From assembly GCA_021297855.1 (NCBI GenBank), contig JAJTHM010000007.1, positions 1-60,902 on the forward strand: a stretch of DNA of 60,902 nt, in the 5' to 3' direction. A program made the translations under genes and the position numbers. The stretch's first letter is position 1; each line of letters starts with the position of its first letter. This document shows, one piece after another, positions 17,321 to 57,537 of the stretch. Source of the DNA: Sphingobacteriales bacterium (GTDB lineage: Bacteria > Bacteroidota > Bacteroidia > Chitinophagales > JADJOU01). A model generated the notes under the pieces. That model saw nothing but the letters and a program-made list of their open reading frames with translations, made no database searches and was not told where the DNA came from.

Positions 17321-17623
17321 ATGTCTAGAAAATTTTTATATACCTTTTCTGGTAAACTATGGCAGTATCAGGCTCCGAAAGGAGGATGGTATTTTATCTC
17401 CCTACCTATAGAGATGTCTAAAGAAATCCGTGAAATTTTCCAACATCAAGAAGAGGGATGGGGGAGACTCAAAGTCAATGCTGAAATAAGTGGTATAAAA
17501 TGGGATACCGCCATTTGGTATGATAGTATAAAAGCGACTTATCTGCTGCCGATAAAAAGTGAGATTAGAAAGAAGTCGATGTTGAATCTTGAAAATTTAT
17601 TAGAAATAAAAATTTCAATTTAA
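17321..17623 (+). CDS. DUF1905 domain protein
   Basis: About 100 residues from ATG 17321 (an upstream TTG at 17306 is less likely). The DUF1905 pattern is visible: KLWQYQAPKGGWYFISLP, a middle VNAEISGIKWDTAIWYD, and the tail LLPIKSEIRKK. DUF1905 is a small beta-barrel-like domain of unknown function, often found with a YdeI-like part, which is absent here. It is divergent from the DUF2061 operon, with a 46-base spacer that must hold both promoters. Confidence 0.8.
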   Translation: MSRKFLYTFSGKLWQYQAPKGGWYFISLPIEMSKEIREIFQHQEEGWGRLKVNAEISGIKWDTAIWYDSIKATYLLPIKSEIRKKSMLNLENLLEIKISI

Positions 17624-17651
17624 CCCAAAATCCGCATTAGAAAAGCGGATT
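17621..17651. repeat. Copy A of a dispersed hairpin repeat
   Basis: Begins at the DUF1905 stop codon. It forms a stem of AATCCGC with GCGGATT around the loop ATTAGAAAA. A second copy, inverted, is found at 43815-43848, matching at about 29 of 31 positions. Both copies sit at the edge of intergenic structured regions. Confidence 0.65.
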
Positions 17652-43459: not shown

Positions 43460-43532
43460 GGTGCGGTAGCTCAGATGGTAGAGCAATGGACTGAAAATCC
43501 ATGTGTCGGCGGTTCGATCCCGCCCCACACCA
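43460..43532 (+). tRNA. tRNA-Phe (GAA)
   Basis: A 73-base cloverleaf. Acceptor 5' strand GGTGCGG pairs with CCACACC at 43525-43531, with one C-A mismatch at the fifth pair. D arm GCTC/GAGC (43469-43484), anticodon stem ATGGA/TCCAT with GAA at 43493-43495, T arm GGCGG/CCGCC around TTCGATC, discriminator A at 43532, CCA not encoded. Followed by a terminator hairpin and by partial copies of its own 3' half. Confidence 0.95.
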
Positions 43533-43544
43533 CTTCCAATTTTT

Positions 43545-43577
43545 ATCCTCAACTTTTATAGTTGGGGATTTTTTTTT
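43545..43577 (+). terminator. Rho-independent terminator after tRNA-Phe
   Basis: Stem ATCCTCAAC (43545-43553) with GTTGGGGAT (43561-43569), one G-T wobble, then a run of T. A degraded copy lies at 43685-43715. Confidence 0.85.
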
Positions 43578-43604
43578 GACTGAAAAGCAATGTGTCAACG
43601 GTTC

Positions 43605-43654
43605 CCTGTCTGACGACGAGGCAGGCCTGTATGCTTGAACGCAGTTCAGGCAGG
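43605..43654. repeat. Palindromic repeat insertion in T loop of pseudo-tRNA unit 2
   Basis: A 21-base unit starting CCTGTCTGACGACG and ending AGGCAGG, followed by a 29-base variant that also starts CCTGT and ends CAGG. Both fold as hairpins with CCTG/CAGG ends. They sit exactly between GGTTC and GATCC of the tRNA T loop. Confidence 0.7.
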
Positions 43655-43742
43655 GATCCCGCCCCACACCACTTCACAATTTTTATCCTCGACTCTTTTG
43701 TTGGGGATTTTTTTTGACTGAAAAGCAATGTGTCAACGGTTC

Positions 43743-43805
43743 CCTGTCTTACGATCAGGCAGGCCTGTCTTACGATCAGGCAGGCCTGTCTGACGACGAG
43801 GCAGG
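43743..43805. repeat. Three tandem 21-base palindromic units
   Basis: Three head-to-tail copies at 43743, 43764 and 43785. The first two share the centre TACGATC and the third has GACGACG, identical to the unit at 43605. Each has CCTGTCT and AGGCAGG arms. A REP-like repeat family is the likely explanation. Confidence 0.75.
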
Positions 43806-43814
43806 CTTGAATGC

Positions 43815-43848
43815 AAAATCCGCATTTCTAATGCAGATTTTGGGTTAA
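43815..43848. repeat. Copy B of the dispersed hairpin repeat
   Basis: AAAATCCGCAT and ATGCAGATTTT arms around TTCTA, then GGGTTAA. It is the reverse complement of copy A at 17621-17651. The remaining bases to 43985 show no gene or further repeat. Confidence 0.65.
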
Positions 43849-43985
43849 TTAAGGTTCTTAATGAGTGACTTCTATCCTAAAAATTGGAGTAATGGACATT
43901 GGTGGAGGTGATTTTTAGCATTTATCATTCGAAATTCCGATTTTTTAAGTTATCTTTAAATTTTAAAATCCTAATATTTAGACCT

Positions 43986-44549: not shown

Positions 44550-45308
44550 TTATAGCTTTTTTTTATTAAATTTTTTATCAACTAAGCAATTAATTGCAAA
44601 TATACCTAATCCAAATATCGCTATACTAATTATTATAAAATCTAAATAATTTTCTTTATTAGTAAAGTTATAAATTATATTTGAAGGATATGATATTGGA
44701 TAATAGATTGAAACATTTTTTAGAGCAATAAATAAATTTACCATTGTCATAAAAACAAAAAGAACTAAAGGATAAATTATACTTTGAACCCAAATTGTAA
44801 CTAAAGAGTAAATAATAATTATTCCCAAAGAACCTAAAAATATAAGTAAGACCATTATAAATAGGTTTGGATTAGTGAAATTTATTAAAACCTTGAATTC
44901 TGGTCTTGTTACTTTCAATAGAAGCATCACAAATATTCCATAGAAAATCAATACTACGTTTGAAAGCAAATTATATATTAGTAAAAGTGTAAATTTATTA
45001 TTCAAAATTGTTGTTCTCCTAATTCCCATTGAAAACATATTTTTCCAATTATTTGTATAATTCTCAACACCAAATACTGAATAAACTAATAAAATACAAT
45101 TTATTGGTAAAAACATTAATGACCAAGTATCTACTAAGTCAATAAAAAATGGAAGCCAAACATCATTAGGGAAATTTTTAGCGTCACGAATAAAATAACT
45201 AGAGGAAATGAGAAGTACTACTAATAATGGAAAGAGAAGTAAAACCTTGAGACTGACAAAAGATTTATTTTTTAGAATCTCAGCTTTTAAAATGTTTATT
45301 TGTATCAT
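44550..45308 (-). CDS. ABC-2-type permease of the lanthipeptide cluster (immunity-like)
   Basis: A 252-residue inner-membrane protein with about six helices (first near residues 22-42, FVSLKVLLLFPLLVVLLISS). The polar loop ENYTNNWKNMFSMGIRR resembles the EpiE/MutE type permeases that pump lantibiotics out of the producer membrane. It starts 2 bases after the ATPase stop, so translation is coupled. It has no catalytic residues. Very AT-rich like its neighbours. Producer self-protection is inferred from position and topology. Confidence 0.75.
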   Translation of the reverse strand: MIQINILKAEILKNKSFVSLKVLLLFPLLVVLLISSSYFIRDAKNFPNDVWLPFFIDLVDTWSLMFLPINCILLVYSVFGVENYTNNWKNMFSMGIRRTTILNNKFTLLLIYNLLSNVVLIFYGIFVMLLLKVTRPEFKVLINFTNPNLFIMVLLIFLGSLGIIIIYSLVTIWVQSIIYPLVLFVFMTMVNLFIALKNVSIYYPISYPSNIIYNFTNKENYLDFIIISIAIFGLGIFAINCLVDKKFNKKKL

Positions 45309-45310
45309 AT

Positions 45311-46213
45311 TTAGTCGTTTTTTGTAAATTTTAAGAATACACTTTCTAAATTGTTTGATTCAGTTGAAATATCCCTGATTTCAATATTATTGTCCACTAA
45401 TTGCTTTATTAGTTTATTTAGTATTTTGTTATCCACTAATTTATAGGATATAATACTATCATCAGTTGAAAACGGCTGAAGATTAAAAACTTTATTAATT
45501 ATATTAATAGTGTTTTGATTATTATTTGTTTTTAATTTTAATTCAACCTTTTGATTTAAAAACAAATCAGAAATTTTTCCATTATATTGAGATTGACCAT
45601 TATTTATAATAGCTAGTTCTGAAATTATTTTCTCAATTTCAGATAATAAATGACTTGATAAAAAGATAGAAATTCCAAAAGATTTATTTAAATTGAAAAT
45701 TAAATTTCTTATATCAATTATACCATGAGGGTCTAATCCATTTGTTGGTTCATCTAGTATCAATATTTTTGGTTCGTTTAAAAGTGCATTAGCGATTGCT
45801 AGCCTTTGTTTCATGCCAAGAGAAAGCTCATTTGTTTTCAATTTTCCGTCTAACCCAACTATCTCTAAGTATTTAGGTATATTTTTTATAGGTATATTGC
45901 AATATAACTGTTTAATTTTTAAATACTCAAATAAAGTTAGATTTGGATATAAAGTAGGCATCTCTACAAATGCACCAATTTGACTAAGAATTTCATTTTT
46001 GTTATAATACAAATCTTTATTAAAAATAAATACTTTTCCGGGAGGTACAGGATAAAGCCCAAGTATAATTTTTATTAAAGTTGTTTTTCCCGCTCCATTT
46101 GGTCCAATTAGTCCGAAAATAGAATCGGACGACATATTTAAGTTAAATGAATCAAATAATGTTTTGCTTTTATTGTACTGGTAGAAGAGGTCACGTATTT
46201 CTATTATATTCAT
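45311..46213 (-). CDS. ABC transporter ATPase of the lanthipeptide cluster
   Basis: A 300-residue ATP-binding subunit. Walker A GPNGAGKT, signature ELSLGMKQR and Walker B ILILDEPTNGLDP are all intact. The overall form, with an extra C-terminal domain of about 80 residues, matches BcrA/EpiF/MutF-type immunity ATPases. It energises the permease encoded next. It starts 7 bases after lanM on the same strand. Very AT-rich codon use sets it apart from core genes such as uvrB. Confidence 0.88.
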   Translation of the reverse strand: MNIIEIRDLFYQYNKSKTLFDSFNLNMSSDSIFGLIGPNGAGKTTLIKIILGLYPVPPGKVFIFNKDLYYNKNEILSQIGAFVEMPTLYPNLTLFEYLKIKQLYCNIPIKNIPKYLEIVGLDGKLKTNELSLGMKQRLAIANALLNEPKILILDEPTNGLDPHGIIDIRNLIFNLNKSFGISIFLSSHLLSEIEKIISELAIINNGQSQYNGKISDLFLNQKVELKLKTNNNQNTINIINKVFNLQPFSTDDSIISYKLVDNKILNKLIKQLVDNNIEIRDISTESNNLESVFLKFTKND

Positions 46214-46220
46214 TCGTTTT

Positions 46221-48974
46221 TTATTTAAATTCTAAAATTGATTCTGATTTGTTAAGTGATAAATTTATTAATGTATAACACAATCCTCCAATTCCAGTAA
46301 AAAGTTCAACTGGTAAAAAACTGTATTCATATCCTGGATTAAAATTTTTCTTTGAAACACTGAAATAGAAATTATTTTTTAAAATTTCAAAGTCACATTT
46401 TTGCAAAAAATTTAGCTGATATAGTTTTTGAGCAATAAGTATATTTCCACTATCCCCATGACATAAACAATCATTTTTATTAAAACAATTATTAATAAAA
46501 TAATTTATACCTCTAAGTACATCGATTGAATAATCTTCATCTTTAGTCAAATTATATATTAGAGCCCTAGAAAATATAATGCCGGGTGTTCCATTACACC
46601 AACCTTCATGATATGAATAACTTGAATCTAATGACCAAGAACCATTTGAATTGTCGAAAAAAGTATTTTCGTACTTAACTAATTTTTTAATCTCATGTAA
46701 CAATTCTGAATTATCAATTATATTCAGATTTATTAAATTTGAAAACGCATAAGCGATTCCAGCTGCACCATGTGCAAAGCCTATTTTTAAACTATTTGAA
46801 TTTATAGCAATATTGATTTCAAATTTAACTTTACTGTATATTTTATGAAGAATTTGATCTACAATGTCTAAATTTAAAGAATGAGATCTTATCTTAGTAA
46901 AACACATTATATCGCCACATAAACCATTAAGTAATCCAATATCATTTTGCAATTTAATTTCATCATAAACTAAAATCAAGTATTTTATTTTTTTAATAAA
47001 CCAATCAATCTTACCAATGTTGCTGTCTTTCATTTTATCCAACATAAAGAGATACTCTGTAATTCCACCATTAAAAATACCAGTTTCTGGTCTAAAAAAA
47101 TTAACAGTAACATTGTTTAGATAAATTCTTTCAAAGTAAGAGCTAAAAATCTTTTCTTTAATGCTTGCAAATTTAAGATCTTCTGATTTTGTATATTCCT
47201 GAAATAAATATAACAAACCGCCAAGTCCTGAATAAATAAAAGGACTAATTGGATAAATTTGCATCATTCTTTCTTTCTCGTCAAATGTTGAAAACCAACC
47301 AATACTATTTTGTTCAGATATTGAATTCTCAATTATTATATTGAAAATATCACTAATTTTTTGGTTTAAATCAAATTTACGGACTTTCTGTTTTGAATTA
47401 TCTTCTGAGTTTGTAACTAGGTTGTTTTTTGTAAGTAACTCTTTAATAATCTTAATTTGAAAATCTAGATCTTCCATACCAAGCGAATCAATTTTATCTT
47501 TTACAATAGCTATATTTTTTTTATTGAAAAAATTGTGATAAATTTTATTGTTTGAATGTAGATTTTTAGAGTTTAGATATGTGTAGAAATATGGAATGTC
47601 ATAATTAAGTAACTGAATGCACTCATCTGAAAATACAACTTTTAAAAGCTTATTGTATATTGGGTCGTTTCTAAATTGTTTTAACAATTTAACTCTATTT
47701 GTAGAATCCCATATATTAGTTGGATATGAAATATCACTTATAGCTTTACCATATTCTTCAGTATTCCTTAATAAAACTCTAATTTTAAGTTTTGATAAAT
47801 TAGAGAGAATGAATTTCTTAATATTTCCCTCATTATTTGAAAAATAATTATAAACTGTTTTAAATCCATAAATAATATGTTTTTCATATTCCTTAGGATA
47901 AATTTTTTTGCCATTAAATATAGGAAGATTTGAAGATTCAACTTTTTTACTAATTTCTTTTCTAACTGGCTTTGTCGTACCTTCTATAATAAATGATTTT
48001 TCGAAAACATCTTCTACGCCACTTAACCCACCTAGATTTACTTTAGAATCATCTCTTATTGTAAAAACGCCGAGTAATTGCGATTGCATAACTGAGATTT
48101 GCACTAATTTAGTTATTAGTTTATTTGATTCGTTTTTGAAAGGAAAAATATCATATACATTTATTGGATTTACTAATGTATCTAAATCAATCAAGACAGG
48201 GTCTTCGCCAGAGCAAATAATATTTTCATAGTGTATATCACACGAATTCATTATGTATAATAAAAATAAATGAATACCAATTTTTATATAGAAATTTTCA
48301 ACTTCTTCTGTTGTATTACATTCTTTATATTCGATTGACTCTACAAAATGAAAACATCCAAAAGATAAGATTTTTAATTTTTTAAAATTTTGTTTTAAAT
48401 CACTGTCTAATTTTGCTAACAATTTATTGTAAAATATTTCTTGTTCACCCGACCTTGGCTTATAATAAAGTGATTTTTCATTATTAAAGTTAATTTTTAA
48501 CACGCACTTATTTCCATTATGTAAATCTCCGTAGTTTGACTGAATTGTTTCAATTTTTACTTCTCTGTCATACTTAAAGTATTTACAAATTAGGTCTAAG
48601 CTACAATAAATATTATTGTATGTCAAAATTGTATTTTCGCCCCAGTTTTTTATTAATTTTATACAGTCAGAGTATAATAATTTGTGTTTATTGAAAAAAA
48701 TGAATTTCGTTTTTTTGTCTCTAATTATTGTGTGAATATATTTATTTGAAGGAATTTCTAGTTCGTTTAAATAGACTATCATACTCTTATGCAATATTTC
48801 AAACAAATTTTGAAATAACACTTCTAAAAATCCGTTTTTTAACACCCCCTCATCTACAGTTTGGTTTGTCTCAATAAGAATTGAAAGTACATAATTATAT
48901 TCTATAAAAACTTCATCACTAATAAAGTCAATATAATGTGCATTTTTGTTTTTTACTAAATCTGATATAAACAT
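46221..48974 (-). CDS. lanM: Class II lanthipeptide synthetase LanM
   Basis: A 917-residue bifunctional enzyme that dehydrates Ser/Thr and cyclises them with Cys. The N-terminal DUF4135 dehydratase has LYYKPRSGEQEIFYNKLL and the kinase-like SCDIHYENIICSGEDP followed by LIDLDTLVNP. The C-terminal LanC-like cyclase has H735 in GFAHGAAG and zinc ligands C793 (GWCNGTPG), C838 and H839 (CLCHGDSG). The length fits LanM. It acts in the cytosol on the precursor encoded just upstream. The AT content is markedly higher than in neighbouring core genes, suggesting transfer. Likely co-transcribed with the two ABC genes. Confidence 0.92.
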   Translation of the reverse strand: MFISDLVKNKNAHYIDFISDEVFIEYNYVLSILIETNQTVDEGVLKNGFLEVLFQNLFEILHKSMIVYLNELEIPSNKYIHTIIRDKKTKFIFFNKHKLLYSDCIKLIKNWGENTILTYNNIYCSLDLICKYFKYDREVKIETIQSNYGDLHNGNKCVLKINFNNEKSLYYKPRSGEQEIFYNKLLAKLDSDLKQNFKKLKILSFGCFHFVESIEYKECNTTEEVENFYIKIGIHLFLLYIMNSCDIHYENIICSGEDPVLIDLDTLVNPINVYDIFPFKNESNKLITKLVQISVMQSQLLGVFTIRDDSKVNLGGLSGVEDVFEKSFIIEGTTKPVRKEISKKVESSNLPIFNGKKIYPKEYEKHIIYGFKTVYNYFSNNEGNIKKFILSNLSKLKIRVLLRNTEEYGKAISDISYPTNIWDSTNRVKLLKQFRNDPIYNKLLKVVFSDECIQLLNYDIPYFYTYLNSKNLHSNNKIYHNFFNKKNIAIVKDKIDSLGMEDLDFQIKIIKELLTKNNLVTNSEDNSKQKVRKFDLNQKISDIFNIIIENSISEQNSIGWFSTFDEKERMMQIYPISPFIYSGLGGLLYLFQEYTKSEDLKFASIKEKIFSSYFERIYLNNVTVNFFRPETGIFNGGITEYLFMLDKMKDSNIGKIDWFIKKIKYLILVYDEIKLQNDIGLLNGLCGDIMCFTKIRSHSLNLDIVDQILHKIYSKVKFEINIAINSNSLKIGFAHGAAGIAYAFSNLINLNIIDNSELLHEIKKLVKYENTFFDNSNGSWSLDSSYSYHEGWCNGTPGIIFSRALIYNLTKDEDYSIDVLRGINYFINNCFNKNDCLCHGDSGNILIAQKLYQLNFLQKCDFEILKNNFYFSVSKKNFNPGYEYSFLPVELFTGIGGLCYTLINLSLNKSESILEFK

Positions 48975-48989
48975 AAAAATATAATAATT

Positions 48990-49032
48990 AAAAAATGCTA
49001 TAGGTTAGTTTAAAATCAACATAACCTATAGC
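48990..49032 (-). terminator. Hairpin between precursor and synthetase genes, likely attenuator
   Basis: Perfect 11-base arms GCTATAGGTTA (48997-49007) and TAACCTATAGC (49022-49032) with a 14-base loop, followed on the minus strand by ATTTTTT. It sits between the precursor stop and the lanM start, where partial termination would give more precursor than enzyme. Confidence 0.75.
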
Positions 49033-49070
49033 ACCGAACTCTGTTTTACAAATGAACAACTATATAGTAA

Positions 49071-49328
49071 TTAATTACTTATAGTTGCTTCTACTGCAGT
49101 TACATCATCCTGTGACACAATAGGACCGAATGGGTTGCATGATTTTGCTGTTTCACCATCAGCACTCACACCACAAATCCATCCACATCCTTTTCTGTCA
49201 GAACTAAACCATGAGCCTTTAACTTGGATTATTATCTCCTCATCATTTAATTCTCCTCCTTTAACTTGATTTAAATCAAAATTTGGGCTACCGATTAGAG
49301 CTTCTAAATTTTCAAATGATTTTTTCAT
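49071..49328 (-). CDS. lanA: Lanthipeptide precursor peptide
   Basis: An 85-residue peptide immediately upstream of lanM. The leader has a double-glycine-type site. One candidate is QVKGG with G24-G25; a second, better fitting the ELNDEE...VxG pattern, is QVKGS at G38-S39. The core that follows the second site starts WFSSDRKGCGW and has C48, C52 and C64, together with S42, S43, S55, T60, S63, S72, T77, T82 and S84 that could be dehydrated. Three Cys allow up to three thioether rings. No homologue is recognised, so the ring pattern is unknown. The start is ATG 49328. Confidence 0.8.
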   Translation of the reverse strand: MKKSFENLEALIGSPNFDLNQVKGGELNDEEIIIQVKGSWFSSDRKGCGWICGVSADGETAKSCNPFGPIVSQDDVTAVEATISN

Positions 49329-50159: not shown

Positions 50160-50460
50160 ACCTCAAAATAAAGCTGTCGCACCTTTTTCCTCAGTCAGCG
50201 GAGGTTTGACCTCGGCTGTCCTCCAAAATAGCTCGAAAAGCGGACAAAAATGCTCGGAGCGAGAAGTAAAAACCTGCGCTCGCCGAGGTTTTTTATGCGC
50301 CGACCGAGGTAAAAGCACCGATAAGGGAGGAAAAAGCTCGGTCATCTCTATTTTTTTCTCGGTCGGCTGAGGTTTGACCTCCGCCGACCGAGCTTTGACC
50401 TCCGACCGCCGAGCTCAAAGGTAGGGGGGGGGTACCTCAGAGGTGGGGGGTCGCTGTGTT
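50160..50460. repeat. GC-rich palindromic repeat region
   Basis: Gene-free stretch much richer in G+C than its surroundings. It holds the palindrome GAGGT-TTG-ACCTC twice (50201-50213 and 50370-50382), each inside a longer stem. The best runs 50358-50392 with arms CTCGGTCGGC and GCCGACCGAG, 10 plus 5 pairs. GACCGAG/CTCGGTC at 50302 and 50337 forms another. A G9 and a G6 run follow (50424-50432, 50445-50450). It sits downstream of both flanking convergent genes. The remaining 50461-50578 shows nothing. Confidence 0.6.
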
Positions 50461-50578: not shown

Positions 50579-53500
50579 TTACCTAATCAAGGTAATACTT
50601 CCCTTCTTTTCGCGTTTTTCACCGTTGAGATACTCCACCTGTGCGGAGAAGCTGTAAACTCCACTTGGCTGAGGTTCTCCCTTATAATTGCCATCCCAGC
50701 CTTGGGTGAGGTGACTGGCCTCATACACTTTCTCTCCCCAGCGATTGAAAACCAGTAAGGAGAATTTCTTTATGCCATTACCATATACATTAAGTTTATC
50801 ATTGAGTCCATCATTATTGCCAGGTGAGAAAGCACTCGGCACGAAGAAATCTAATGGGTCAAATACGGGTACATTAATTTTAGACCTAGCCTTACAATCT
50901 TTATGATAGGTCACCTCAACTTCGTACAGTGTAGTTGAATAGGGAGAAGCTTTAGGCTGTTTACAGTCCGTACAGCTTAGTCCTAAACTAGGAGTCCAGT
51001 TGACACTCCTAGAGGCAGGTATTAAGCCACTCATAGAAAAAGTATCAAAATATAAGCTAACTTCATTTCCCATGGTTAGAGTATCTGGCGCAGAAGCATC
51101 CCTCTTCGCAGTGATCAGAAGCTCTTCGGGCTCATTGATTATATTTTTACGACTCGCCACACAGTTATTACTATCTCTAACAGATACGTTATATTCCTTG
51201 CCTGAAAGGCCCGTAAACTTGCTCGTACTAAAATAATGTAATCCACCATCTATGCTATAGTCGTAGCTGCTTCCCAATTTAGGCGTTCCACCATTGGCAT
51301 TAATCACGATGACGCCATTGCTATATTTAGGACAAGATACGTGTTCCAAATTGACATCATCTAGGGTCAACTCCTTTGGTTCTCTTATTTCCTGTTCTAC
51401 ATAGGCCTTGCAGAGATTGGCATCTGTTATAGTCAGTCTGTATGGGTTAGGCTGCAACGCTGGTTTCAAATTTATTTGCTTTGTTTTATTTTCTAAACCA
51501 TGACTCCATGCATAACTCAGATTTGAGAATCCACCAGTTGTTTCAATGTCTATTTCTCCATCAGCAGCCTTATAACAGGTAATCTGTTTTACCCGCACAG
51601 CACGCGCTATAAATGGATTGGGCTGTGTAAGTGTAAATGGTTGAGCTTTAGGACAACCCTTCGCATCTATCAATCTAACTATATGCACGCCTGCGGGTAA
51701 ACCGACGGCGCTGTCTGTGTACTGTTCATTTGGTGGTGAATTCCAGACAATATTGCTATATGGAGCTTGACCACCAGTAACAGTAATCTTAATAGATCCA
51801 CTAGCCTCCCCATAACATTTTGGATGTTTTAAATTATTGCCAAATGAGGTAATAAGTATATCTGTTGGTTCGTATAGATTAGATGCTCCTGTAGCTTTAC
51901 AGCCCACAGCATCCGAAACGGTGTAGGTAAATGTGCCAGCAGCCAAGGTTCTAAAATTGAGTGATCTGTCTTGACTTCCATTGTCAGAACTAAAGTCGTA
52001 GACCAGAGGCAGCGGTGCTTTATTGGCTGGGTAAATGGAGTTTATTGTAATAGAACCGTTTGAGAGACCAAAACATTGCACGCTATCAACTGTCACCTTG
52101 GTTATTCTTAACTGATACATCGTATCCAAAATGATAAATGGACTTTCCGCTCTACAGCCTCTGGCGTCTGTGACGATAACCTTGTACTCCGCCAAACCTC
52201 GCAATAAGTTTGCTGTAGCGGCATTATACTTCAATTTGTCCATGGTATCTATGCTGCCATTTAGCTGATCTTTCATAACCCATACAAAGTTGTAATTAAC
52301 CGTAGGATTCCCCCCTGTAAAACGGGAAACATTCATGCTGCCATTATTTACTTCTATGCAGTTTGCGTCCCGTGGGACATCCAATCCAATACTAAATGGT
52401 TGTGGCTTATTTAAGCTGTGGGTAAAGCTGTGTGTACATCCTTCAAAATCCGTTACTCTCAAAGTATAGGTCCCAGAATCTAGATTATCAAAAATTACAT
52501 TGGTATCCTTTGTGAAGATTTCTTTAATCTGAGAAGTATTTTTTATCAACTCATAATGATAGTTCGCCGAACCGGTTGGTATATTTCCTCTTTCTCCTGT
52601 TTTGATCTTCACATTAAATTTGCCATCAAAGGTGTAGTCACAATTTGGATTATCCGCTTGTACCAAACTCAAAACGAGTGGTTGTGGCTCTGTGACAGTA
52701 AATAGATACGGATATGCGCAACGCTTACCGCTCGCTATATTATTGTAGTTTACAATTATATTTTTTATCCCTCCTGTCATGCCTCTCAACTCGTTCGATA
52801 ACGTATCTGAGTTCGTACCAGGCTTATTTATAAACCCAAGATTGGAAAGCAGGGCTGGATTGATGCTCGTTACTTGGATATTAGTAGGAAGCTTTGTGGT
52901 ATCTCCATTGCATCGTGTCTGCACTGGAAGTACCAATACAGAAATAGAATCCGGAGTAGGGACGCTATAATTCCAAGTCACTATACAGCCCAAGGCATTG
53001 CGAACTCGGACAGTTTTATTTACACCAGATACTTGAGTCGTATCGCATGAATCTCTTTTATACCCACTACCAAAATCATAATCAAACGGAGTGAATTTAT
53101 CAACTGCACTAACACAAACTTTTCCATCCGATGTTCCAAGGCAGCTAGGCATTTGACTTGATGTGATTCCTTGAATAGCATTATTTTGAGGAATATCTAT
53201 AGAAGATATGACCGTATCACAACCTTTATTCGATTGTATTCTGACAAGATAAAACCCTGATTTCAAATTTTGGAAAATAGCGGTATCTATTGGATAATGA
53301 TTGGATTTCGTGATAACTTCCAATGATGGATTAGTTAAACTATTTTGGTGAAGCGTATAGGTATAATTTGCTGTGGTAGCATAGTTCTGACTATCTATTG
53401 CACCTATGGTTATTTTACCAGTAGAAGAGTCATAACATTTTACTGAATCAAGCTTTAATGCATACTTCCAATTACAAATAATATCACGCACCATCACGCT

Positions 53501-56500
53501 GTCACAGGTTTTACAGCCATTTTGGTCTGTGACACATACATAATACATTTGCTTATTCAACCCAGCGATAGTATGGTCTAGGGCTGCTGTGGTTGTACCT
53601 GCGGCTCCGTTCACAGGGGCGCCATTTTGTCTTGTCCATTTATAGTTGAAATTGGCGGTACCCCCGCTAATAAATGCAGTAGCACTGCCGTCACTTCCTC
53701 CTACTATGGAGGCATTAACCCGATTTATAGAATCAATTGTCAAACTTTTTATTGGCTCAGTCACTTTAAAACATGCAGTAGCAATACAATTATTTACATC
53801 GGTAACTGTCACACACAAACTATCGGCATATAGACCTACTAAATGATTGAAATTAGGAATGGGTGCATTTTGACTATTCACGCCAGACCATTGGTACACA
53901 TAGCTCCCTCCGTTTAGAGTACCTCCATTTCCCTTCACTTTTAGTTCCCCAGAATTCTCCCCCTTACATTTTACAGGCAAAAGGCTCTCTAGCACCACAG
54001 TCAGCGTATCTGGAGCCATATGATTAAATGTCTTTCGCCCCATACAACCCGTAACTCTATCCGTTATCGTGCAAACTATTATTCCTTCCGGTCTATTGAT
54101 AATTTTGTAAAAAGTATCCGTAAATGAACTAGGGGACCAAGTATATTTATAGTTACCAGAGCCTGTAGAACTTAATACCACAGCCCATACACTGTCTGCA
54201 TTCCCTCCTTTACATCTTATCCCACTCGTAAATATATTGGAAGTTATGGTATCCATTTTTGCTGATAAAACCCCTGTGGATGTTCCAGTGCAGGATGCAT
54301 CTGATTTTAAAGAAATAAGTACTCTAAAAGTATCTGGGGCTAGATTCACAATTGAATCATTAATAGCTCCTGTAATCACCGTTCCAGGCAAAGGCTCTTT
54401 TCTCCAAACAAAATTAAAGCTGTCTGCCATGCTTCCAACGGGGAGTATAGCTTTGATCTTTCCATTGCTAGCCGTGCAGAGGGAGGAATCTATTTTCAAA
54501 CTCACAGGTATATTATTATTGACTGTAATTACTACCGTATCTGTTGCATTGCATGGTCCATTGACAGCAGAGATAACATAAGTATGCTGACCCGTGCCTG
54601 GATTAATCAGCAAGGTATTGGTAGTCTGAGGGGGGGTTGGCATGCCATGATTTCCTGTTGTAGAGGATAGCATCTGCCAATTCATAGTGGTTCCGACTCC
54701 CCCTGTCACAGTAGCCGTTAAACTTATATTTGCTGTAGAAGATCCACTAACGCAGTATACACGCTTGCCAGAATTAATTTTTACTTTAAAGTTTTGATCT
54801 ATATTTAGACGAACCAAGGCCGTATCAAAACAGAGACTCGTCCCTACTGTGGCGATAAATACACTATCTTTTTGCGTCACCCTTCCTATAGCCCTCGGAT
54901 TACTCACATTTGTTATGAGATTTGATGGCGTCCATATAGCATTGAGGAGATTGGTAGGTGTGCTATCTACAGTGCAGAACTCAACCTGCAACTGTGGTTT
55001 AGCCGAAGTACCTCCCGACCCAATATAGGCATTGTTGCTATTCTCTGCATCCTGGCCAACTGCTGTGGCGAGCTTAGTCGCAATTTGATTTCCCGAAACG
55101 GTTCCCATTGTACGAATGATATTTGGCGTAGCGGCAGATGCAGTATTTCTGCAATGTGTCTCGACCACCAAATTAGATACTCCATCCCAATCGAACCCAT
55201 TTACAATAGGAAAACGGGCTCCTGAGAAACCTGCTACGAATGATTTCTGTTGAGGGCTGAATATAGTAAACATGGGAATATTGAGCGTTCTAGCATCGAA
55301 AGACATAGTAGACCCAATTCGAACTTCCAATCTATCAATGATTGCAATATTTATCGTTTGCAGATTAAACGCTATAGACTTAATAATACCAGGTCTAACT
55401 CCGGCGTTAATTAGCTCTGCTCTCGTATAGATAATTCTTGTGGTAGCTCCCTGTGCAGCTCCCGTGGTATTCAAAGGATGCGGATAATGCGGATTTAATC
55501 CAGTTGGATAAACCGATGAAACACCCGCAGTTACATCTTTTATAATATCTGGAGATGCGCAAGTATAGATAGATGGTCCACAGGTTTTGGGTATCACATT
55601 AATGGAAAGCATGGTCGTATCACCAGGGCATAATAATTTTCGATTACTCAGTCCACTGGCTACTGGTCTGACCCCATTCATATTAATGCGAATAGAATCA
55701 GTCAATATACAATTAAATCTACTCGTAATCTCCACTGGATAGGTTCCCGACTTCAATGCAATTATCTTAGGACTCGCTATGCTTGTGCTAATTTTATTCG
55801 TAGCAGGATTATAAATACTTCCCAAAGACACAGGATCTATCCATTTATAGGTATAGGGTGTATCACTAATTTGAGTAAACAAGCCCACCTGAACCGTATC
55901 GTGTAAACACAAATCTGTTAATTTGGGGGCTAAGGTATAATTGAATCTGGGGATTACAATTACCCGCAAACTATCAATAATTGTGCAGCTCTGGGTGCTA
56001 TCGATACCATCGATTCCTTTTACAACATAGGTGGTAGAACTAGTAGGTGCTAAATCGACCTCACTACTATCTGGTTTCTTAGCCCAAAAAATTCCTGTTT
56101 TGGGGGTCCAGCTATAGTTTGTAGCTCCATTTACACTGGCTTTCACGGGCTTTCCACCGATACAATAATAGAGGAGTCTATCTTTTACGCGAACTGCTGT
56201 CCGGAAGTTTAAGGTGAGATTGTAAAATCTAGAAATCTTATTTCCTATAACATCGCAATAATAATATTCTAATAAAAAGCGCTCTGTTCCCACTCCTACA
56301 GCTGAATCAAAGGTTATGGTACCAAAAATGGTATCCGTAAAATTCATTCTGATCTTATTTTCAACATATTTAAAGTTAACAATGGCATCAGACTTAGGTA
56401 TTTCAATCACCTTGGTCAAAAGGTTTTGGTTCGGAGCACCCACTAGCTTAAATGTTACCCTTGTTTTCCCTTTGCCACAAATATCAACTTTGTCGAATGC

Positions 56501-57502
56501 AATTTTGTTTGCACTCACCAATGAATCCTCCACTACTCCTGGAGCGTATATATCTGGACAAGCTTCTCTAACCGTTATCTGCACATCTCGACAAACGTAT
56601 CCGACTTTGACACGCGTATAGCCTCCGCTTCCATTGGGTATAGCCCTCCACTCTTCTACAGCTATGGCCATGACAGCATCTTGCACCCTATCGGGGATAC
56701 AGGAATATTGACCCGTTTTCGCGTCGAAATTTATACCATTGACTGTATACATAAAATTTGTAGGAGATAGCCCAGCTGCCCATGTGCAACATGGATTTTT
56801 TAATAGAGCTGCATCATTAGGATTTGGAGCTTCATTTAGAAATGGGCAAATTAAAACATATGCTAATGAATCTCGTATGACTTGCTTATTATTGATCGTA
56901 ATATAGCGCGAGTCAAACGTATCTACCGCGCCATGATTGTATGTATTGAGTCTCATTCTGCACCAATATGGAATTGGAGGACTTCTAAAAATGGTAGAGT
57001 TATTGTGATAATTAGTATTTAAGGCTGCTTGAACCCATGCATTTTGCCATGTTTGACCAGTCGTAATTTCCAAATTTCTACAACATTCTTGATATCCTAC
57101 GAAGACCCAACCTGAATTCTTTCCAAATGTATAGTCCACTTTATAAATCCAACGTTCAACACCTTTTGTTCCATTGGCGAGCATAGGAGTTTGTCCTGGA
57201 CAATTCGTAGCAGGCTTTACAGGAACATCTGGAGGCTGACACTGAGGGGTTACCTCTTGTTTACTCAATAGTGTCATTGGAATTTCAGCTTTGAAGCCCG
57301 CCTTCCTAACACTCAAATTGGTATTAATAAAAAAAGTAATCCCTGAGCAGGATCTGTATAAAGTTACTGTAAATCTATATTTGGCGGTATTTGAATCTAA
57401 TAGGCGATACGAAATATCTGCACCAAAAAAGTGATCTGCCTTCACCTGACTTTGAAAGCCGAGAAGAACGAGCAGGGTAGTTATAGCTTTAAACTTCTTC
57501 AT
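50579..57502 (-). CDS. Giant CHU_C surface protein with SprB-like repeats
   Basis: About 2307 residues from ATG 57502, which gives a signal peptide (MKKFKAITTLLVLLGFQS). The earlier in-frame codon at 57532 overlaps the promoter. The N-terminal ADHFFGADISYRLL region is the usual opening of Bacteroidota surface proteins with PKD-like domains. The middle holds at least eight SprB-like repeats of the pattern CxGxxxGxxxxxxxGG (such as CYGEASGSIKITVTGG and CPKYSNGVIVINANGG). The end carries the CHU_C sorting domain with FSPGNNDGLND and NRWGEKVYE. It is exported by type IX secretion and probably acts as an adhesin or motility surface component. Confidence 0.9.
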   Translation of the reverse strand: MKKFKAITTLLVLLGFQSQVKADHFFGADISYRLLDSNTAKYRFTVTLYRSCSGITFFINTNLSVRKAGFKAEIPMTLLSKQEVTPQCQPPDVPVKPATNCPGQTPMLANGTKGVERWIYKVDYTFGKNSGWVFVGYQECCRNLEITTGQTWQNAWVQAALNTNYHNNSTIFRSPPIPYWCRMRLNTYNHGAVDTFDSRYITINNKQVIRDSLAYVLICPFLNEAPNPNDAALLKNPCCTWAAGLSPTNFMYTVNGINFDAKTGQYSCIPDRVQDAVMAIAVEEWRAIPNGSGGYTRVKVGYVCRDVQITVREACPDIYAPGVVEDSLVSANKIAFDKVDICGKGKTRVTFKLVGAPNQNLLTKVIEIPKSDAIVNFKYVENKIRMNFTDTIFGTITFDSAVGVGTERFLLEYYYCDVIGNKISRFYNLTLNFRTAVRVKDRLLYYCIGGKPVKASVNGATNYSWTPKTGIFWAKKPDSSEVDLAPTSSTTYVVKGIDGIDSTQSCTIIDSLRVIVIPRFNYTLAPKLTDLCLHDTVQVGLFTQISDTPYTYKWIDPVSLGSIYNPATNKISTSIASPKIIALKSGTYPVEITSRFNCILTDSIRINMNGVRPVASGLSNRKLLCPGDTTMLSINVIPKTCGPSIYTCASPDIIKDVTAGVSSVYPTGLNPHYPHPLNTTGAAQGATTRIIYTRAELINAGVRPGIIKSIAFNLQTINIAIIDRLEVRIGSTMSFDARTLNIPMFTIFSPQQKSFVAGFSGARFPIVNGFDWDGVSNLVVETHCRNTASAATPNIIRTMGTVSGNQIATKLATAVGQDAENSNNAYIGSGGTSAKPQLQVEFCTVDSTPTNLLNAIWTPSNLITNVSNPRAIGRVTQKDSVFIATVGTSLCFDTALVRLNIDQNFKVKINSGKRVYCVSGSSTANISLTATVTGGVGTTMNWQMLSSTTGNHGMPTPPQTTNTLLINPGTGQHTYVISAVNGPCNATDTVVITVNNNIPVSLKIDSSLCTASNGKIKAILPVGSMADSFNFVWRKEPLPGTVITGAINDSIVNLAPDTFRVLISLKSDASCTGTSTGVLSAKMDTITSNIFTSGIRCKGGNADSVWAVVLSSTGSGNYKYTWSPSSFTDTFYKIINRPEGIIVCTITDRVTGCMGRKTFNHMAPDTLTVVLESLLPVKCKGENSGELKVKGNGGTLNGGSYVYQWSGVNSQNAPIPNFNHLVGLYADSLCVTVTDVNNCIATACFKVTEPIKSLTIDSINRVNASIVGGSDGSATAFISGGTANFNYKWTRQNGAPVNGAAGTTTAALDHTIAGLNKQMYYVCVTDQNGCKTCDSVMVRDIICNWKYALKLDSVKCYDSSTGKITIGAIDSQNYATTANYTYTLHQNSLTNPSLEVITKSNHYPIDTAIFQNLKSGFYLVRIQSNKGCDTVISSIDIPQNNAIQGITSSQMPSCLGTSDGKVCVSAVDKFTPFDYDFGSGYKRDSCDTTQVSGVNKTVRVRNALGCIVTWNYSVPTPDSISVLVLPVQTRCNGDTTKLPTNIQVTSINPALLSNLGFINKPGTNSDTLSNELRGMTGGIKNIIVNYNNIASGKRCAYPYLFTVTEPQPLVLSLVQADNPNCDYTFDGKFNVKIKTGERGNIPTGSANYHYELIKNTSQIKEIFTKDTNVIFDNLDSGTYTLRVTDFEGCTHSFTHSLNKPQPFSIGLDVPRDANCIEVNNGSMNVSRFTGGNPTVNYNFVWVMKDQLNGSIDTMDKLKYNAATANLLRGLAEYKVIVTDARGCRAESPFIILDTMYQLRITKVTVDSVQCFGLSNGSITINSIYPANKAPLPLVYDFSSDNGSQDRSLNFRTLAAGTFTYTVSDAVGCKATGASNLYEPTDILITSFGNNLKHPKCYGEASGSIKITVTGGQAPYSNIVWNSPPNEQYTDSAVGLPAGVHIVRLIDAKGCPKAQPFTLTQPNPFIARAVRVKQITCYKAADGEIDIETTGGFSNLSYAWSHGLENKTKQINLKPALQPNPYRLTITDANLCKAYVEQEIREPKELTLDDVNLEHVSCPKYSNGVIVINANGGTPKLGSSYDYSIDGGLHYFSTSKFTGLSGKEYNVSVRDSNNCVASRKNIINEPEELLITAKRDASAPDTLTMGNEVSLYFDTFSMSGLIPASRSVNWTPSLGLSCTDCKQPKASPYSTTLYEVEVTYHKDCKARSKINVPVFDPLDFFVPSAFSPGNNDGLNDKLNVYGNGIKKFSLLVFNRWGEKVYEASHLTQGWDGNYKGEPQPSGVYSFSAQVEYLNGEKREKKGSITLIR

Positions 57503-57529
57503 AATATTTACTATTTTCTTTTCTTTGTG

Positions 57530-57537
57530 CAAAATTA
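57530..57537 (-). promoter_or_regulatory. Putative -7 promoter element
   Basis: TAATTTTG on the minus strand fits TAnnTTTG and lies 27 bases before ATG 57502, supporting that start. The rest of 57538-57730 shows no gene. Confidence 0.45.

Follow-up and report, generated by a model that had tools for sequence, protein, structure and literature searches.

The window, a stretch of 60,902 nucleotides from the 3.1-Mb draft genome of a Sphingobacteriales bacterium, carries an array of broken tRNA copies next to its tRNA-Phe gene. We propose, with a probability of about 0.65, that this array consists of tandem, ORF-less units of a homing-type mobile element that invades tRNA genes. Because there is no nuclease gene in the window array, its origin from such an element is proposed by analogy: no nuclease link is visible inside the window, and the nuclease-bearing loci lie outside it. 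At the level of sequence comparison, the anatomy of these loci, their recurrence, the coupling of nuclease to tRNA isotype, and the existence of empty and occupied sites at two loci of the 3′-type are established.

Broken tRNA copies in the window and in the host genome

The initial annotation placed the structure at 43578-43805. These coordinates are correct, and the structure begins further upstream, with the intact tRNA-Phe gene. Its parts are as follows.

43460..43533, + strand: intact tRNA-Phe(gaa), the target gene (ARAGORN, Rfam)
43534..43577, + strand: trailer with terminator-like hairpin and T run (sequence reading; trailer comparison with empty-site relatives)
43578..43604, + strand: unit 1 left half, tRNA-Phe from the anticodon arm to GGTTC (repeat finders, alignment)
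43605..43654, + strand: T-loop palindromic insert of 50 nt, the 21-mer CCTGTCTGACGACGAGGCAGG plus a 29-nt imperfect palindrome (sequence reading, repeat finders, pattern scan)
43655..43672, + strand: unit 1 right half GATCCCGCCCCACACCAC, 18 nt, second copy of the tRNA 3′ end (repeat finders, alignment)
43673..43715, + strand: unit 1 trailer, a terminator-like stretch (sequence reading, trailer comparison)
43716..43742, + strand: unit 2 left half (repeat finders, alignment)
43743..43805, + strand: three tandem 21-nt palindromes with no GATCC half behind them (sequence reading, TRF)

Two partial tRNA-Phe copies 3′ of the real gene, as first described, were seen directly and by repeat finders. 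The left halves of units 1 and 2 are identical to each other and differ from tRNA-Phe at 4 of 27 aligned positions. Because the same four changes are present in both, the units are copies of one another. By alignment, the 18-nt 3′ end in unit 1 is identical to that of the intact tRNA-Phe. TRF detected the 138-nt tandem 3′ of tRNA-Phe with a score of 441, and the tRNA was the sole Rfam match. The proposed cut between GGTTC and GATCC applies to the first copy; in the second copy the GATCC half is missing. The 21-base tandems were found as reported, three 21-mers in copy 2 and one in the insert of copy 1. Immediately 3′ of the array, at window 43815-43850, there is a second palindromic repeat, AAAATCCGCAT...ATGCAGATTTT, which recurs in the genome, including at window 17620-17651.

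An ABC transporter, a LanM-like lanthionine synthetase (DUF4135 + LANC_like) and a small precursor-like ORF are encoded at window 44550-49328. This lanthipeptide-type cluster lies between the tRNA-Phe array and a SprB-repeat/CHU_C gene (50579-57532). In the relatives G001, G002 and G003 the cluster is absent, because a gene with the same C-terminus as the SprB-repeat/CHU_C gene is found about 0.3-0.6 kb past tRNA-Phe. A 21-nt tandem, GAGCTTTGACCTCCGACCGCC, with 2.2 copies by TRF, is present at window 50369-50415, just downstream of the SprB-type gene.

Duplication of a 3′ end beside a tRNA is the usual mark of tyrosine-integrase elements. The arrays might thus be scars of ordinary tRNA-targeting elements of this kind, each displaced 3′ end being an att remnant. 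The duplicated ends fit this explanation, as does the lanthipeptide-type cluster between the array and a downstream gene that directly follows the tRNA in three relatives. However, the units are about 100-450 nt long and hold a GIY-YIG gene only or nothing, too short for an integrase, and in the elements of the 5′-type described below it is the 5′ end that is displaced. Moreover, the broken copies hold both flanks of the site together with the palindrome, and no integrase is evident by eye in the window's ORF list over 36-54 kb around the array. We consider an integrase origin very improbable.

The array was initially regarded as an unusual hotspot. We examined 30 of the 31 tRNA matches in the host genome (the 31st was under the family cut-off), and partial copies of the tRNA itself were found nearby at 14 of these 30 loci: two Met, Ile, Pro, Asn, Arg, Phe, Ala, two Val, His, Gln, Ser and Glu. 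Since shuffled tRNAs gave one match among 600 queries, chance is excluded for the partial copies. Thus, the tRNA-Phe array is one of 14 such loci and not a singular hotspot. The plan of the window, in which CCTG...CAGG stands between GTTC and GA, is repeated at the Ser, Val, His, Gln and Glu loci. At tRNA-Ser, one contig ends with two units and another begins with six; we take the two sets to be one array.

The CCTG...CAGG palindrome follows the T-loop GTTC in broken Ser, Val, His, Gln, Glu, Ile and Phe tRNA copies of the host genome. The same palindrome also occurs in D loops, at other tRNA positions and in non-tRNA repeats. A pattern scan of the host genome gave 47 rows, as compared with 1 for the reversed-pattern control. 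With contexts judged by eye, 24 of the 47 rows (23 sites) are inside broken tRNA copies and the remainder outside, where the flanks of the palindrome are varied, again by eye. For a TCCCGAT-type palindrome the counts were 20 and 0 in the control. Therefore, insertion of the repeat at one exact target, as suggested by the initial annotation, is borne out for the T-loop GTTC of seven tRNA species but not for the D-loop cases or for the half or so of the 47 rows that are outside tRNA copies.

Such dispersal would be expected if a REP- or MITE-like palindromic repeat with its own transposase inserts into the loops of tRNA pseudogenes, the tRNA copies being a local tandem duplication and the nuclease a passenger. 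REP/RAYT systems are described as having short dispersed palindromic repeats (PMC3733652), and the host genome resembles them in this respect. In contrast to REP/RAYT, many of the palindromes here occupy specific loops of broken tRNA copies that adjoin a GIY-YIG gene.

GIY-YIG nuclease genes beside tRNA genes

In the host genome, GIY-YIG genes adjoin tRNA-Glu, tRNA-Met and tRNA-Val and are followed by a broken copy of that same tRNA; a further GIY-YIG gene is beside tRNA-Leu, at a contig start. The tRNA-Phe anatomy was found around a short GIY-YIG gene in the window's genus (L038/L152) and in another family (L049/L146). In one named MAG record (L439), a tRNA-Phe element with a CCTG palindrome in the T loop has the plan of the window plus the nuclease.

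Linkage was measured with a Pfam GIY-YIG probe, which is independent of tRNAs, in 24 relatives and the host genome. In this first set, ORFs of up to about 240 aa were scored, giving 62 short-ORF loci; UvrC, exonuclease fusions and other long ORFs were set aside, and one 195-aa match in G068 was left out. A second nuclease within a counted locus (L129m) was also left out of the linkage count, and L157 had no A1 match. Over all 62 loci, a tRNA on the same strand was present at 41. Strong members, defined by at least 80 bits against A1, a profile of tRNA-linked members, accounted for 43 of the 62 loci, and 37 of these 43 have a same-strand tRNA within 700 nt; because A1 was built from tRNA-linked members, this split by score is not independent of tRNA linkage. 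Four of the other strong members are at contig edges and two have no tRNA (L114 and L162), although a broken tRNA copy is present at L114. Unlike the tRNA-linked family, the low-scoring GIY-YIG loci of the same genomes are not near tRNAs in 15 of 19 cases; the four with a tRNA are degraded or truncated copies (L155, L156 and L159) and a divergent member (L131). As a control, we used 10 UvrC or other long-ORF loci, one from the host-genome scan and nine from relatives, and none has a tRNA in its 3.2-kb region.

A second set was chosen with A1 among the order-scan matches listed. It comprises 109 loci, namely 29 new ones, eight of which (8/109) repeat places of the first set, and 80 further regions. 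A tRNA was found at 95 of the 109; 13 are at contig edges and one has none. The median distance between nuclease and tRNA was 47 nt for the first set; for the A1-chosen set it was 39 nt. Of the 123 distinct loci, 121 include sequence on the far side of the nuclease. In 113 of these 121, that side carries the same tRNA a second time, with a score more than 4 points higher than the best of 20 shuffles. In a few of the 113 positives (for example L108, L116, L180, L193, L213 and L217), either this second copy is almost complete or the real tRNA had been mistaken for it. The second copy is missing at 8 of the 121 loci. One of these, L137, has copies between tRNA and nuclease, and its array contains a nuclease unit as well as ORF-less ones.

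In a scan of named genomes, all of the best 80 of 421 confirmed matches have a same-strand tRNA within 700 nt, and a second tRNA copy is present in 69 of these 80 and absent in 11; at least four of them (L379, L380, L392 and L394) are places already seen in the earlier sets. For example, in Algoriphagus pacificus (L451) a tRNA-Arg copy contains three palindromes, of which one is beyond position 9, one at the D loop and one in the T loop, and a tRNA copy of Flavobacterium xinjiangense (L383) contains two. Assembly artefact as a general cause is ruled out by this recurrence in other genomes, including the cultured A. pacificus, F. xinjiangense and Chryseobacterium koreense. A dispersed palindromic repeat with a passenger nuclease leaves the same-strand nuclease at 37/43 loci, and at 80/80 of the best of 421, unexplained.

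Several other features of these loci should be mentioned. At L162 (G000:C134, about 2460-2760), the GIY-YIG gene of the family has no tRNA beside it and separates two parts of a gene that is transposase-like (IS91-like by eye). It is flanked by the inverted repeat CCCCGTTACAAATTT/AAATTTGTAACGGGG and adjoins an ORF that is XerD-like by eye. Like the loci that lack a second tRNA copy, L162 speaks against the element reading. In the tRNA-Asn type (L117, L126 and L132), the nuclease ORF extends into the broken tRNA copy and ends in LAQLVRVPHVRD-like residues, which we take to be encoded by tRNA sequence. Many GIY-YIG units are at contig ends (L128, L139, L150, L154, L163, L195, L206 and others), and the arrays may break short-read assemblies. 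Family members also stand beside tRNAs in records labelled as Parcubacteria, Wolfebacteria and Chlorobiota MAGs (L420, L447 and L396), reflecting either transfer between phyla or misbinning.

The loci are of two mirror types. In the 3′-type, the nuclease is downstream of the intact tRNA and is followed by 3′ fragments; in the 5′-type, the nuclease stands just upstream of that tRNA, with 5′ fragments ahead of the nuclease. Among inserts of 16-90 nt in the broken copies (L213, the tRNA-Thr and tRNA-Stop rows and inserts outside this range being excluded), 37 of 45 are in or at a loop, as compared with 16.5 expected if they were uniformly placed. All 16 T-loop inserts belong to the 3′-type and all 16 D-loop inserts to the 5′-type, a split that is partly forced because a 3′ fragment often has no D loop and a 5′ fragment often has no T loop. 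Of the 37 loop inserts, 26 gave a better fold than their shuffles did (p<=0.05), as did 3 of the 8 inserts outside loops. With short inserts included, the fraction was 30/75; short inserts seem unstructured because the aligner splits palindromes that replace a stem. In the loop-insert cases the palindrome is about 14-22 nt from the displaced tRNA end.

The nuclease is mostly 80-100 aa long, and its gene is on the strand of the tRNA. Pfam PF01541 (GIY-YIG) was detected in all five proteins searched, with an overlapping T5orf172 match in one, and no DNA-binding or other further domain was found by Pfam in these five. In sets of 38 and 52 sequences, Y17, R27 and E63/E65 are invariant. The Tyr, Arg and Glu of the GIY-YIG domain are catalytic. 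An AlphaFold2 model of the nuclease had a pLDDT of 93. Both by sequence and by fold, the best PDB matches are UPF0213 and SLX1 (1zg2, 1ywl and SLX1); the Foldseek E-values are weak (0.006 and above), with a probability of 1.00 for the top ten. The match to I-TevI is far weaker, and the nuclease is nearer to SLX1 than to the I-TevI/UvrC (HEase/UvrC) lineage. The NCBIfam model for group I intron endonucleases matched two of the five proteins, far under its cut-off. Prokaryotic SLX1-like GIY-YIG proteins are described as typically having no auxiliary domains, and largely vertical descent of the SLX1 family was inferred in the same superfamily study (PMC1564403).

On a tree of 120 nuclease proteins, the tRNA isotype changes 39 times, as compared with 76-91 times in 100 permutations and 74-87 times when isotypes are permuted within host families. 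Host family changes 56 times, with 65-77 changes in permutations. Because isotype tracks the nuclease tree, the link to a given tRNA species descends together with the protein, which is what a homing enzyme should show. This tracking is also unexplained if the nuclease is a passenger of a palindromic repeat. The idea that the loop interrupted by the palindrome tracks the nuclease clade was unsupported (13 changes over 36 loci, with 11-19 in permutations). The independence of this loop from the nuclease tree counts against the element reading and favors the palindromic repeat; the resemblance of the nuclease to SLX1/UPF0213 and not to a known lineage of homing enzymes also counts against the element reading.

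Of the genomes sampled, 240 of 396 from the order (E<=1e-9) and 172 of 395 from the phylum (E<=1e-18) contain a member of the nuclease family; for the phylum, tRNA context is known for those matches that coincide with loci already studied. Five tandem nuclease copies are present in each of G674 (315-nt spacing) and G619 (450-nt spacing).

Empty and occupied sites in close relatives

Occupied and empty alleles of one site were found among close relatives at tRNA-Phe and at tRNA-Arg (G022 versus G099, G111 and others). At tRNA-Phe, G001 and G003 are empty and G002 is occupied. The G002 trailer behind the broken copy matches the G001 and G003 trailers with scores of 38 and 40 (shuffle maxima 29 and 32), whereas the trailer of the intact G002 tRNA-Phe is unlike them (19 and 20). 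At tRNA-Arg, the distal trailer of the occupied G022 matches G099 (52, shuffle maximum 33) and G111 (48, 24). Its proximal trailer matches the occupied G079 (68, shuffle maximum 28) and none of six relatives without a nuclease unit at tRNA-Arg. For G069, G117, G086 and G093, no significant match was obtained with either G022 trailer at tRNA-Arg, so that a significant match is present in 2 of the 6 relatives only; the trailer test covers two loci. The downstream flank is beside tRNA-Arg in G069, G117 and G086 but not in G093. In G099, 325 nt of the G022 tRNA-Arg locus are absent, precisely between the two copies of the tRNA 3′ end.

At both loci the distal trailer is similar to that of empty relatives, as in the gene-end replacement by fungal mORFs described below. 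The simplest reading of these sequences is that, at the two 3′-type loci tRNA-Phe and tRNA-Arg, the element entered the tRNA gene itself and supplied the end that was cut off. A palindromic repeat with local duplication leaves the new trailer on the intact tRNA at these two loci unexplained. The initial annotation had suggested that recombination was directed by the tRNA; tRNA-directed insertion is now backed by the empty sites of relatives, which indicate that units with a nuclease went into the tRNA gene at tRNA-Phe and tRNA-Arg.

In the ORF-less window array, this replacement of the trailer was not seen. Trailer 1 of the window (43534..43577) matches G001 and G003 with scores of 55 and 55 (shuffle maxima 31 and 32), and trailer 2 with scores of 53 and 38, the shuffle maxima being 31-34 over both window trailers. 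Both trailers are therefore native-like, as a plain local duplication of the native tRNA end would also give, and cannot tell element entry from local duplication at this place. For this reason, we lowered the probability of the element reading from 0.7 to the value given above and slightly raised that of the palindromic repeat, which we still regard as rather unlikely.

At tRNA-Asn, G069 has four ORF-less 96-nt units, which separate the tRNA from the upstream region and are missing in G022, G099, G111 and G079. In G117 a palindrome-bearing stretch occupies the same place. An ORF-less array in this position would suit a functional system of tRNA-derived RNA, in which decoy fragments or dosage arrays act against tRNA-cutting toxins or defenses and are amplified by a SegB-like nuclease. 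SegB of T-even phages, a free-standing GIY-YIG homing endonuclease often associated with tRNAs, is described as driving tandem amplification of a tRNA locus (PMC13096335), which lends this explanation a precedent. However, most of the amplified copies are broken and could not work as ordinary tRNAs, and the sites differ among close relatives and are often empty. A functional RNA system of this kind seems improbable to us.

A proposed homing cycle and its relation to known systems

We propose that a complete element, about 100-450 nt in size, would consist of, in order, a tRNA end that regenerates the gene, a trailer/terminator, the GIY-YIG gene, a copy of the other part of the tRNA, and the palindrome. 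Entry would occur in a loop of the tRNA gene. Elements of the 3′-type would enter in the T loop around the junction of C56 and position 57 (or in the anticodon arm) and push the old 3′ end downstream, and those of the 5′-type would enter in the D loop and push the old 5′ end upstream. The adjoining tRNA would remain intact, its missing end having been provided by the element. The end pushed away would persist as the broken copy, interrupted by the palindrome.

The homing cycle might proceed as follows. The nuclease would cut the matching tRNA gene without an element, and the break would be repaired from an occupied allele, by which the element is copied in. The end carried by the element would then restore the tRNA, and the old end would be displaced, a step that the empty sites support. 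Further rounds or unequal exchange could then generate tandem arrays, many units of which lose the nuclease gene; the window array may be such an ORF-less stage. Because the intact tRNA retains the presumed target, self-cutting must somehow be avoided. The role of the palindrome is the least certain part of this proposal. It may hide the broken copy from the nuclease, or it may block recombination with the intact tRNA, or it may form a hairpin substrate for the SLX1-like enzyme.

Fungal mitochondrial mORFs, as described for Allomyces atp6 and for Glomus atp6, atp9, cox2 and nad3, the atp9 case being GIY-YIG, offer a comparison: a free-standing endonuclease ORF enters a gene and brings its own copy of the gene end, and the native end is displaced downstream (PMC3630166). 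The present elements share with these mORFs the replacement of a gene end by an endonuclease ORF (PMC3630166). Unlike them, their hosts are bacterial tRNA genes, and either end can be replaced; furthermore, they have a palindrome in the displaced copy, are about 100-450 nt long, are often tandem and ORF-less, and are linked to isotype. SegB resembles the present elements in being a GIY-YIG enzyme tied to tRNA genes with tandem copies. In contrast to these chromosomal elements, SegB belongs to phages and amplifies whole tRNAs, and a regenerated end, a broken copy and a palindrome are absent from its description in that source (PMC13096335). Gene-end replacement is known from fungal mitochondria, and tandem amplification linked to tRNAs by a GIY-YIG enzyme is known from T-even phages; the present elements are apparently undescribed. 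In the open-access literature, we found no description of tRNA-linked GIY-YIG elements in Bacteroidota; one may exist elsewhere.

These elements are apparently widespread, small, selfish and undescribed. We also put forward, as a tentative and somewhat doubtful extension, that they form a phylum-wide undescribed class of selfish elements in which an SLX1-like nuclease would act on hairpin or branched DNA of tRNA genes. Such an element would enter at the loops of the cloverleaf and regenerate the tRNA, the palindrome would prolong the tRNA hairpin, and targeting would depend on structure together with isotype. Because tRNA genes are essential and nearly invariant, an element that enters and repairs them has a target that can hardly be lost. 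If the homing-element reading holds, it would account for a large number of small GIY-YIG genes, tRNA pseudogenes, tandem repeats and contig breaks among Bacteroidota, and it would provide a testable system for an SLX1-type nuclease turning selfish.
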